DNA from: Deltaproteobacteria bacterium
GTDB lineage: Bacteria > Myxococcota_A > Polyangia > Polyangiales > Houyiibacteriaceae
Direction: 5' to 3'
Assembly (NCBI GenBank): GCA_004283055.1
Contig: SHLP01000002.1
Span: 66,753-108,213, forward strand
Length of the DNA: 41,461 bases
Shown here: piece after piece, positions 16,126-20,680 of the stretch
How positions within the stretch are numbered: position 1 is the stretch's first letter
Layout of the letters: each line of letters starts with the position of its first letter
Made by a program: the position numbers and the translations under genes
The notes under the pieces: generated by a model
Seen by the model: the letters and a program-made list of their open reading frames with translations, nothing else
The model's database searches: none
Told to the model about the DNA's origin: nothing

Positions 16126-16210
16126 GCATTAAGCCTGGACCAGCACGGGGGCAGCGCAAGCTGGTTTTCCACGTGGCCGCAGAGCCCAACAGTCGCTATG
16201 GTCAGGCACT

Positions 16211-17614
16211 TTGCGAATCCTCTTCATCGCCCCTCAAGCATTCACCTCGACCCGGGACGCCCAGGACGCGGCGACGCTGGCCAAAGTGCTTCGTCGCGCG
16301 GACCACGCGGTCGACCTCTTGTCTCCCCTCTACGGTCATATCGATACCGTGAAGCTCGCCTTGGCGCGCCGTCTCACCAAGCTCGAGTTCGATCTCGGTG
16401 GAAGACCCTGGTCGTGCGAGCTCTACACCGGACGAAACCCCGACGGCGTAGACCTCACCTTCATCGGGAATGAGGAGGTCCTTCTGTCGGCGGATTCGCT
16501 CACCGGCGAAGGGGGCCAGCTCGAGGCGTCGCGTATCGGCGTCTTTGCCAAAGCCGCCACGGAGCTCATTCGGCAGAACGCGGACAACTACGACATCGTT
16601 CATGCCCACGGCTGGGCGGCCGGCGCGGTAGTCGCGCGACTGCGCTCGGCGCTTCCCGACCTGCCTACCGTGCTCACCGTCTACGACGCCGCCGAGCAGG
16701 GTCGATTCGATTCGGCCGACGCCGACTGGCTCGAGCTCGGCGAGCAGGCCGTCGACGAGGCCGGCATCACGGTCTTGAAGGCCGGGCTCTTGAGCGCCGA
16801 TCAGGTCACGGCCCTCTCCCCCAACTACGCGCACCGCTTGCAGCGGCCCGACAGCGACCATCCATTGGGTCAGGTCTTTCGCGATCTCGGCTCCAAGGTG
16901 TCGGGGGTCCGCCACGGGATCGACCCCGCGTTTTGGAACCCCGCGACCGACGGCCATCTCCCCTCCCGATTCGACCCTTTCGACATGGACGGCAAAGACA
17001 AGTGCAAGGCCGAGCTTCAGCATGATCTGACCTTGCCAGTGCGGAGCGATGCGCCCCTGTTCGGCGCCATCGGGCACGTGGACGACGAAGGCATGGCGCT
17101 GCTCGCGAAAATCGGGCCGGACTTCTTGCGTAACGACGTGCAGCTCGTCGTTCAGCTCGAGGGCGACGGCGAGCTGGTGGCGATTTACGAAGAGCTTTGG
17201 GACCAGTGGCCCGACCGCATCCAGATCAAAACCGGCAACGACGAAGCGTTTCGGCACGCGCTCATCGGCGCCAGCGACTTCATCGCGGTGCCTGGCAGTG
17301 AGGCGCCGTCTGACAACATCCAAATGCTCGCGCAGCGATACGGCGCGTTGCCCATCGTCCACCGGGAAGGCGGTCTCGCCGACGAGGTGGTCGACTGCGA
17401 GGCCTCCTTGAAGACGGGCTCGGGTTTTCTCTATGACGAGCCCACCACGAGGTCCCTCCTCGCCACGATGCAACGCGCGACGGCCGCGTTCGCGAACAAC
17501 AAGGCCTTCCGCGAAATGCAGAGCAGGGTGATGCGCCTCGATCACTCCTGGGAGCGAACGACGCGCCTCTACGAGCGGGCCTACCGCGACGCGATCGCCG
17601 CGCACCGCAGCTAG
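16211..17614 (+). CDS. GlgA-like GT-B protein with missing catalytic residues
   Basis: 467 residues. The overall plan is glycogen synthase (GT5): MRILFIAPQ, YDIVHAHGWAAG near 128, TAVSP-like ALSPNYAHRL near 202, GIDPAFWNP near 236, and REGGLADEVVD near 385. However the residues that make GlgA work are changed. The ADP-glucose lysine motif KTGGL is replaced (R15 DAQDA), the Arg/Lys pair of SRLTxQKG reads GHVDDEG (H289), and the EPCGL motif with the catalytic Glu reads EAPSD (Ala365 at the Glu position). I infer an enzyme with altered activity or none. The TTG at 16211 is the start giving the family N-terminus; the ribosome site is weak. Its stop overlaps that of convergent tsaB. No other glycogen genes are nearby. 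Confidence 0.8.
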   Translation: MRILFIAPQAFTSTRDAQDAATLAKVLRRADHAVDLLSPLYGHIDTVKLALARRLTKLEFDLGGRPWSCELYTGRNPDGVDLTFIGNEEVLLSADSLTGEGGQLEASRIGVFAKAATELIRQNADNYDIVHAHGWAAGAVVARLRSALPDLPTVLTVYDAAEQGRFDSADADWLELGEQAVDEAGITVLKAGLLSADQVTALSPNYAHRLQRPDSDHPLGQVFRDLGSKVSGVRHGIDPAFWNPATDGHLPSRFDPFDMDGKDKCKAELQHDLTLPVRSDAPLFGAIGHVDDEGMALLAKIGPDFLRNDVQLVVQLEGDGELVAIYEELWDQWPDRIQIKTGNDEAFRHALIGASDFIAVPGSEAPSDNIQMLAQRYGALPIVHREGGLADEVVDCEASLKTGSGFLYDEPTTRSLLATMQRATAAFANNKAFREMQSRVMRLDHSWERTTRLYERAYRDAIAAHRS

Positions 17615-18421: not shown

Positions 18422-19147
18422 ATGAGCAAACCAAAAGACAAAGCGGCTTCGAAAGGGGCGCGAAAGGGCGACGGCTGGAAGTCGAATCTGCTGACGATCG
18501 GCGGCGCTCTGTTGCTGGCACTGTTCATCCGGGTAACTCTGTTCGAGGCCTTTGCCATCGACGGTCCCTCGATGGAGCCCACCCTCCTCGACGGTGATCG
18601 GGTCGTCGTCGCGAAATACCCCTTCGGCCTGTTCCTGCCCTTTACGAACGAAGCGATCGTAAACTGGGGAGGCCCGGATCCCGGCGATGTGATCATTCTC
18701 CACAGCCCCGCCGACAACGAGGATATCGTGAAGCGGGTCATTGGCATCGGCGGAGATGAGATTCTGATTCGCGATGGGAAGATCTCCCGCAACGGTGAGG
18801 TGCTGCAAACGGTGGACGTGGGCCCCTGCTCGGTCGAGGAACAGAAGAACCTGGACCCCACCTGCCGCGTCTACGAGGAAACGCTCGACGGTGATCCGCA
18901 CCGGATCAGCCATTCGAGGCACGACTTCCCGCTCGACCGCCTGCCGCTGAAGGTGCCTGAGGGCCATGTCTACGTGCTCGGCGACCACCGCGACAGCTCG
19001 AATGACAGCCGAAACCCGCTCATTGGCGCCGTCCCCAACTCACGCATCAAGGGCAAATCCTTGTTCATCTACATGTCCTGGAAGAACACGCGGGACTCGG
19101 TGCTCGAACGGATTCGCTGGTCGCGCGTGGGCAGCCCCGTCGACTAA
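18422..19147 (+). CDS. lepB: signal peptidase I
   Basis: 241 residues. Cleaves Sec signal peptides at the outer face of the inner membrane. One membrane helix (about 22-40) after a Lys/Arg-rich N-terminus, catalytic Ser50 in DGPSMEPTL, catalytic Lys104 in DIVKRVIG, and the conserved GDHRDSSNDSR near 190. A 40-residue insert with two Cys (GPCSVEEQ...PTCRVYEE) after the Lys box is seen in several proteobacterial LepB. The next gene starts 28 bp downstream. Confidence 0.97.
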   Translation: MSKPKDKAASKGARKGDGWKSNLLTIGGALLLALFIRVTLFEAFAIDGPSMEPTLLDGDRVVVAKYPFGLFLPFTNEAIVNWGGPDPGDVIILHSPADNEDIVKRVIGIGGDEILIRDGKISRNGEVLQTVDVGPCSVEEQKNLDPTCRVYEETLDGDPHRISHSRHDFPLDRLPLKVPEGHVYVLGDHRDSSNDSRNPLIGAVPNSRIKGKSLFIYMSWKNTRDSVLERIRWSRVGSPVD

Positions 19148-19174: not shown

Positions 19175-20680
19175 ATGAGCGACCTCAAGGGCGAGATCTT
19201 GGCGCGGCTGCGCGACGAGATCGGAACAATCGACAAGGAGGCTCCAGAGTCGGTCGCCCTGCTGTACCCGAGCCCCTATCGGGTCGGAATGTCGTCGCTC
19301 GGCTATCAGACGATCTATCGCTCCATCAATTTGACGGAGGGCCGAGCCGCCCACCGGGCGTTTCTGCCTGATGATCTCGACGCCTGGCGACAGTCACGTG
19401 CGCCGCTCGTGACGCACGAGAAGCTCAGGCCCGTCTCCGACTACCCGATCATTGCGGTCTCAGTGGCCTATGAAACCGAGCTGGCCGGCCTCATCCAGTG
19501 CCTGCAGCTGGCGGGCATCCCCCCGCTCGCCGAGGAACGGAACGAGCAGCATCCGTTCATTCTCGCGGGGGGACCGCTGACCTTCAGCAACCCGCTGCCC
19601 CTGGCGCCGTTCGTCGACGCCGTCGTCATGGGGGAAGCCGATCAATCGGTGCACGAGGTCTTGAGTGTGATCTTCGGCTCGGATTCCAAAGACAGCGCGA
19701 TGCGCAGCCTGTCCAGGCACCCTCACGTCTTCGTCCCGAGCGCGCACGGCGATTTGCTTCCGCCCATCGACAAGACCGAGAGCGCCACCCTCCCCGCCTA
19801 CTCGCAGATCATCACCCCGCACACCGAGCTCCGGAACATGTTCTTGATCGAGCCCGAGCGCGGATGCCACCGGGGCTGCACCTATTGTGTGATGCGCCGC
19901 TCGACCAACGACGGCATGCGCATCGTCAAGATGGATCGCGTTCTCTCGCTCATCCCCGACGAGGCAAAACGGGTCGGTCTGGTGGGCGCCGCGACCACCG
20001 ACCACCCGCAGATCACGGAGATCGTCCATGCCTTGGCTGATTCGGGACGTGAGGTCGGCCTGTCTTCCCTGCGCGCGGATCGACTGAACGACGAGCTCGT
20101 TGCGGCCCTTCGCAGAGGCGGCCATCGCGTTCTCACCACGGCCAGCGATGGCGCCAGTCAGCGTATGCGCGACATCATCCAACGTAAGACCAGCGAAGAG
20201 CAGCTCCGGCGCGCGGCCGAGCTGGCGCGCCGCCACGCGATGAAACGTCTGAAGCTCTACGTCATGGTCGGCGTTCCCGATGAAACCGATGAAGACATCG
20301 ACGAGCTCATCGAGCTCGGAGGGGAGCTGTCTTCCCTCATTCCCCTCTCGCTCGGCGTCGCCCCCTTCGTCGCGAAGCGAAACACGCCGCTCGATGGCAG
20401 CCCCTTTGCTGGCATCCCCCTGGTCGAAGCGCGCCTTCGTCGGTTGCGTCGCGGGGTTCGCGGCCGCGTCGAGCTTCGTGCGACCAGCGCCCGATGGGCC
20501 TGGGTGGAATACGTGCTGGCTCAGGGAGGCCGGGCGGAGGGCCGGGCCGTGCTCGACGCCGTGCATGCAGGAGGCCGATTCGCGGACTGGAAGCGCGCAT
20601 TCAACGCGCTTCCGGAGCAGCGCCCTCGACGTCTACTCGTTCGGCCGGGCGACCGTCTGGGCCGCGCCAGAGCCGGCTAG
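19175..20680 (+). CDS. B12-binding-type radical SAM protein (TIGR03960-like)
   Basis: 501 residues. An N-terminal region resembling a B12-binding Rossmann domain (VALLYPSPYRVGMSSLGYQ; AGGPLTFSNPLPLAPFVDAVVMGE) precedes a radical SAM barrel with the cluster motif CHRGCTYC (CxxxCxxC) near 230. The downstream LRADRLNDELVAALRRGG and GVPDETDEDIDE segments are typical of this family, whose members often lie in or near tRNA/rRNA modification genes. The reaction is unknown. It is a likely second gene after lepB. Its end overlaps the convergent nuoN by 4 bp. Confidence 0.9.
   Translation: MSDLKGEILARLRDEIGTIDKEAPESVALLYPSPYRVGMSSLGYQTIYRSINLTEGRAAHRAFLPDDLDAWRQSRAPLVTHEKLRPVSDYPIIAVSVAYETELAGLIQCLQLAGIPPLAEERNEQHPFILAGGPLTFSNPLPLAPFVDAVVMGEADQSVHEVLSVIFGSDSKDSAMRSLSRHPHVFVPSAHGDLLPPIDKTESATLPAYSQIITPHTELRNMFLIEPERGCHRGCTYCVMRRSTNDGMRIVKMDRVLSLIPDEAKRVGLVGAATTDHPQITEIVHALADSGREVGLSSLRADRLNDELVAALRRGGHRVLTTASDGASQRMRDIIQRKTSEEQLRRAAELARRHAMKRLKLYVMVGVPDETDEDIDELIELGGELSSLIPLSLGVAPFVAKRNTPLDGSPFAGIPLVEARLRRLRRGVRGRVELRATSARWAWVEYVLAQGGRAEGRAVLDAVHAGGRFADWKRAFNALPEQRPRRLLVRPGDRLGRARAG

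Follow-up and report, generated by a model that had tools for sequence, protein, structure and literature searches.

A conserved pseudo-glycogen-synthase of Myxococcota predicted to have outlived its GT5 catalytic site

The gene at positions 16211–17614 (+ strand) of the window, the whole stretch of 41,461 nucleotides analysed here, is, as judged from its sequence, a real and conserved pseudo-glycogen-synthase. The predicted protein of 467 amino acids is a homologue of the GT5 enzyme GlgA in which the catalytic residues have been lost although selection on the gene is purifying, a combination that characterizes pseudo-enzymes. It is very probably not a glucosyltransferase. For the statement as a whole, that a dead GT5 protein is kept for a non-catalytic binding or scaffold role linked to glucan, we estimate a probability of about 0.5; the putative glucan link is drawn from homology only. 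A literature search of titles and the beginnings of abstracts, with most subscription journals outside its scope, found no description of a bacterial non-catalytic glycogen synthase; starch synthases without catalysis are known from plants.

Sequence homology and loss of the catalytic residues

The open reading frame contains no internal stops and begins with a TTG codon, which is shared by the window gene and all 16 genus loci compared. The model TIGR02095 (glgA) matches residues 19–460 with an E-value of 4.4e-86 and 289.4 bits, below its cut-off of 328.45, and PF08323, the N-terminal GT5 domain, matches over its cut-off (2e-27); a Pfam scan of the window protein gave no match to the C-terminal family PF00534. 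Among solved chains, the closest by sequence are of the E. coli GlgA type. The first-pass annotation had described a glycogen-synthase-like frame with a TGGLADxV-type motif. Both features are recovered, the frame by near end-to-end homology to TIGR02095 and a two-domain layout in the alignment, the motif as GGLADEVVDC (residues 387–396) in the retained second glycine motif HREGGLADEVVDC (17360–17398, +), identified by alignment and genus comparison. AlphaFold2 yielded poor models, with a mean pLDDT of 46.5 for the full protein (from an alignment of 16 genus rows) and 36.6 for the C-terminal part. Because these models are unusable, the GT-B fold is predicted from homology.

A few bases upstream of the TTG codon, GCTATGGTC (16195–16203) does not differ between the window and any of the 16 genus loci compared. 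It could represent the -10 element of a near-leaderless transcript or, alternatively, part of the divergent yfcH promoter.

Seven positions were scored in the numbering of E. coli GlgA (b3429): K15, D137, H161, N246, R300, K305 and E377, which we take to be the functional residues of this enzyme. The exchange E377A nearly abolishes activity of E. coli GlgA, and a PDB chain with alanine at this position exists (3cop). In the alignment, the window protein retains none of the seven. The degenerate KTGGL loop reads TSTRDAQ (residues 12–18; 16244–16264) and is variable in the genus; the alignment, which is loose here, places S13 opposite K15. HDW is replaced by HGW (D137 to G134; 16607–16615), TVHNL by TVYDA (H161 to Y158; 16676–16690), GVLNGVD by GVRHGID (N246 to H235; 16904–16924), SRLTSQKG by GHVDDEG (R300 to H289 and K305 to E293; 17072–17092) and RFEPCGLTQ by SEAPSDNIQ (E377 to A365; 17297–17323), all on the + strand, and C379 of the E. 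coli enzyme corresponds to S367. The replacement of KTGGL, of the Arg/Lys pair of SRLTxQKG and of the Glu of EPCGL, as listed in the first-pass annotation, is borne out by this comparison. None of the seven residues is kept in 11 of the 17 genus rows, and the remaining six keep one (H161 or R300). Since each of the 17 rows retains at most a single position and selection on the gene is purifying, the catalytic loss exceeds what chance would produce.

Integrity, selection and gene order

Pseudo-GlgA is under purifying selection similar to that on its housekeeping neighbours. Its median pairwise dN/dS in the genus is 0.091 (39 of 120 pairs, with pS < 0.6, from 16 genus sequences, leaving out L050/L021 of genome G017), compared with 0.080 for lepB, 0.088 for nuoN, 0.094 for the radical SAM gene, 0.073 for a metallophosphoesterase, 0.115 for yfcH and 0.189 for tsaB. 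The gene was found in 18 of 19 genus genomes, in G004 as a contig-end fragment only. Genus copies are 76–93% identical to the window protein, and no internal stop occurs in those listed, in agreement with the earlier description of the gene as intact. The sole genus genome without the gene, G013, also gives just a weak partial match for tsaB (E 1.5e-4), so that the absence is uninformative and the stretch is probably unassembled.

In the copy of G017 (L050:5001-6272; L021), residues 362–401 including GGLADEVVDC are missing in frame, which is either a real deletion or an assembly collapse. An antisense reading frame of the same length (16202–17605, − strand, 467 amino acids) was rejected as a gene: stops occur in every antisense frame in 15 of 15 orthologues, and the frame is therefore regarded as an artefact of G+C content.

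The gene order around pseudo-GlgA is conserved. The divergent neighbour is yfcH (TIGR01777; 15220–16125, −), and the convergent neighbour is tsaB (TIGR03725; 17611–18333, −), whose coding end overlaps that of pseudo-GlgA by 4 bases. These are followed by lepB, encoding signal peptidase I (18422–19147, +), and by a gene for a radical SAM protein resembling TIGR03960, under the model cut-off (19175–20680, +). Outside the genus, the gene adjoins yfcH and/or tsaB in 18 fetched loci from 17 genomes of the families f1, f3, f6 and f9, several of which also contain lepB and the radical SAM gene. For five members of the same clade (L023, L027, L052, L053, L063) the yfcH/tsaB context is absent from the stretch fetched, in some cases due to a contig end.

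Of the seven scored residues, 0 to 3 are kept by the syntenic copies of 16 of these 17 genomes. The exception is G037 (f6), where the copy is split over two contigs (L064, L065) and, provided that both halves belong to one gene, keeps four of seven (K15, D137, H161 and E377), with R300 exchanged for Lys and K305 for Arg. This copy is possibly a half-way form between enzyme and pseudo-enzyme. It might be active, in which case the pseudo-GlgA locus would not be dead throughout. Three matches occur in genome G043: a syntenic dead copy (L034), a GlgA in which all seven residues are retained (L075) and one further match that is GT5-like.

The loss is concentrated in the former active site. The columns compared have a conservation of at least 90% across 68 catalytic-type rows (at least six of seven residues); on average, the residue is kept in 0.28 of 21 syntenic rows at 25 active-site columns versus 0.73 at 34 other columns (permutation p 5e-5), where two of the syntenic rows are from the genus, two are the halves of the G037 gene, and the active-site columns are our own list, compiled from motifs that we assume to mark this site. 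K305 is kept in no syntenic row and E377 in a fraction of 0.10. As the active-site columns drift and the other conserved GlgA columns hold, it is chiefly at this site that constraint has been relaxed.

Glycogen genes of the genome and the genus

Apart from pseudo-GlgA, PF08323 matches only one GT3-type and one GT4-type protein in the own genome; a catalytic-type GT5 was not found there, which leaves no true GlgA of this genome for the phylogeny suggested in the first-pass annotation, and no GlgC scored over the cut-off (best 41 bits versus 424.9). The same genome carries a cluster comprising a debranching enzyme (GDE), a GT4 protein, a GH57 protein and a GT3-plus-phosphorylase protein of 1454 amino acids, as well as a second GT3 synthase. 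Given this other glycogen cluster, GT5 catalysis looks dispensable. Across the 19 genus genomes, PF05693 (GT3) was found in 17, GDE_C in 14 and GH57 in 15, and TIGR01515 (GlgB) gave sub-cut-off matches only. In G007 and G009, two fragmented genomes of 90% completeness each that keep the pseudo-GlgA gene, none of the four markers PF05693, GDE_C, GH57 and TIGR01515 was found, which is mild evidence against a strict link to glycogen. Four genomes of other genera of f1 (G022, G024, G028, G032) contain a second GT5 with catalytic motifs, as assigned from motif patterns only.

The 1454-residue frame of the own genome (L156:8533-12894, contig C232) combines a PF05693 GT3 synthase, DUF3417 and a PF00343 phosphorylase, and joins enzymes of glycogen synthesis and breakdown in one polypeptide. 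PF05693 lies in frames of 1447–1505 amino acids in nine genus genomes including the own, in which alone the phosphorylase part was scanned.

Dead and catalytic-type copies across the phylum

Among the matches listed, 161 GlgA-type copies of the phylum and of E. coli were fetched, G037 being treated separately. Their counts of retained residues follow a bimodal distribution, with 0 to 3 of the seven kept in 66 copies and 5 to 7 in 95. Gaps were scored as not kept, and one or two of the scored positions are gapped in 15 of the 66 dead rows. In a tree of 59 chosen rows, calculated with the active-site columns masked, the dead copies are scattered. The dead copy L056 groups with the intact L030 and L051 (98/97 for the group), and the dead L115, L121, L128 and L123 stand beside the intact L099 and L104 (87/74). 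Parsimony requires at least six changes of state, suggesting that catalysis was probably lost repeatedly. The number of losses is uncertain, as the state counts are unrooted and do not distinguish gain from loss, 17 of the 56 internal branches are left open and two of the rows are very long. A single dead clade, considered after the tree had been seen, was weakly rejected (p-AU 0.028).

In family f12, the intact copies L058, L060 and L062 and the dead copies L112, L118 and L138 have common neighbour genes, so that live-type and dead forms occur in one and the same region. Dead copies elsewhere lie in other contexts, among them a pseudouridine synthase/peptidase M1 context in f12, FHA and FliN-C-like genes in f15 and a Ser/Thr kinase in f7. 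A function deduced from the neighbours was rejected on account of these differing contexts in f12, f15, f7 and other families.

The dead GlgA copies of f15 (L139-L141, L143-L146) and f7 (L079, L087, L089) are very divergent. Most of the f15 loci share the FHA and FliN-C-like neighbours and the f7 loci a Ser/Thr kinase-AAA gene; all ten copies contain the ARRL motif described below.

The ARRL motif

Within the N-domain of the window protein, residues 52–55 read ARRL (16364–16375, +), and this motif occurs in every dead copy that covers the site. In the pattern [RK]R[LI] at window residues 53–55, it is found in 66 of 66 dead copies versus 30 of 93 catalytic-type copies covering the site (the catalytic-type L137 and L203 do not cover it); the Fisher value for this contrast is descriptive only, since the rows are related by descent. 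All survey rows except that of E. coli were found with the ARRL-bearing window protein as query, a procedure that may hide dead copies without the motif. A sample drawn after the pattern had been seen contained [RK]R[LI] in 6 of 6 dead copies, all from f12, and in 12 of 25 catalytic-type copies with coverage. The pattern is also present in the G037 copy, and some of the dead copies carrying ARRL are only 25–27% identical to the window protein. With [RK]R[LI] at residues 53–55, the window protein belongs to the ARRL-type GlgA lineage as defined in this analysis.

Beyond this motif, 43 positions are conserved in the syntenic copies but occur in less than 60% of the other catalytic-type GlgAs. 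As 34 of these 43 are common to ten intact sister rows, the retained surface probably predates, in large part, the loss of catalysis.

Discussion

In the mechanism that we propose, the erased active site would no longer support glucose transfer, and selection would retain the two-domain scaffold for a non-catalytic role. The preserved surface including ARRL may serve to bind a partner or ligand, most plausibly a chain of alpha-glucan or an enzyme of glucan metabolism. Priming, localising or regulating the metabolism of storage glucan could be the outcome, akin to the function of plant SS5. This agrees with the view of the first-pass annotation that catalysis was lost and that the product may serve in binding or regulation: other residues occupy the catalytic columns, the Arg/Lys positions are variable, and the rest of the protein is under purifying selection.

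A broader and somewhat more tentative version, which we hold at slightly less than even odds, is that an ARRL-marked GlgA lineage had a more ancient non-catalytic function, which survived the enzyme on several occasions, and that it forms a bacterial counterpart of SS5. Such a protein would possibly act as a glucan primer, sensor or assembly factor together with GT3/GT4-type synthases. Many myxobacteria would then keep an erased GlgA with an unchanged ARRL motif, some of them in genomes in which no catalytic-type GT5 was found.

The most serious competitor, for which we see an appreciable but clearly smaller chance, is a scaffold re-used for a job unrelated to glucan, e.g. as a protein-protein adaptor or as a sensor of a ligand from general metabolism, with the GT5 origin being mere history. 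The gene neighbourhood fits this idea: the genes lying closest are yfcH, tsaB, lepB and that of the radical SAM protein, and, as the first-pass annotation had noted, no glycogen gene is present among the eight neighbours scanned (12.0–23.8 kb of the window). The retention of the gene in G007 and G009 and the lack of a catalytic-type GT5 and of an above-cut-off GlgC in the own genome point in the same direction. However, pseudo-GlgA stands alone between a divergent and a convergent neighbour, and adjacency therefore says little about its function. Moreover, the differing gene contexts of dead copies in other lineages imply that no single neighbour explains them, and the sharing of ARRL with catalytic-type GlgAs is suggestive of a retained surface that arose in glycogen synthesis.

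Considerably less probable is a protein that is still a glycosyltransferase, using another donor or a re-built active site. Several replacements hardly vary within the genus (G134 and H235 occur in 16 of 16 sequences, A365 in 15 of 16, Y158 in 14 of 16) and could constitute a new active site, the syntenic relative G037 keeps four of seven residues, and archaeal GT5 enzymes accept several NDP-glucoses according to a review (PMC11046441). These points are opposed by the variability of the Arg/Lys positions within the genus (H, S, R, G or D at 289; E, D or A at 293) and by the near-complete loss of K305 and E377 from the syntenic rows. A figure legend of the same review depicts Lys, Arg and Glu as the implicated catalytic residues of this GT-B group (PMC11046441). 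Since no alternative set of residues is fixed at positions 289 and 293, the other donor considered in the first-pass annotation is unsupported, though it keeps a small probability.

A decaying pseudogene or a sequencing or annotation artefact, which the missing catalytic motifs and the in-frame loss in the G017 copy might suggest, is extremely improbable and is refuted by the selection and synteny results, namely stop-free genus copies at a dN/dS of 0.091, their 76–93% identity and the same locus kept across four families.

If a non-enzymatic function was inherited within the preferred reading of a dead GT5 kept for binding or scaffolding, it could be dissected by comparing catalytic and dead copies of the ARRL type, with the repeated losses serving as natural replicates. 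The ARRL motif would offer a putative but concrete handle on the role of pseudo-GlgA. For genome annotation, the results imply that many of the Myxococcota proteins entered as 'glycogen synthase' by homology probably do not synthesise glycogen.

Comparison with known systems

The window protein resembles bacterial GlgA (GT5; E. coli b3429) in its full-length homology, the second GGLAD motif and scaffold residues. It differs from GlgA in that none of the seven catalytic positions is retained, the TIGR02095 score lies under the cut-off and PF00534 does not match, and its genome differs by the lack of a GlgC over the cut-off. Similarity to chain 3fro, which we take to be GlgA of P. abyssi, is remote (phmmer E 3e-6). 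A non-catalytic glycogen site and trimer formation via the N-domains are described for the P. abyssi enzyme in the review (PMC11046441).

Plant SS5 (SSV), as portrayed in three publications, has no transferase activity and acts via a glucan-binding domain and MRC (PMC7582286, PMC10801857, PMC11772324). Common to both cases would be a relative of starch synthase that is devoid of transferase activity and kept beside active glucan synthases. However, SS5 is eukaryotic and located in chloroplasts with MRC, PTST2 and SS4, whereas the window genome shows no active-type GT5 to assist; the likeness is proposed as an analogy.

A further comparison is provided by the ARRL-type catalytic GlgAs of Myxococcota (e.g. 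L030, L051, L058, L094-L102, L184-L186, L189-L192). These differ from the window protein in keeping seven of seven residues, from which they are presumed to be active. In common with it they have the [RK]R[LI] pattern and, as judged from ten of these rows, a large part of the conserved surface.
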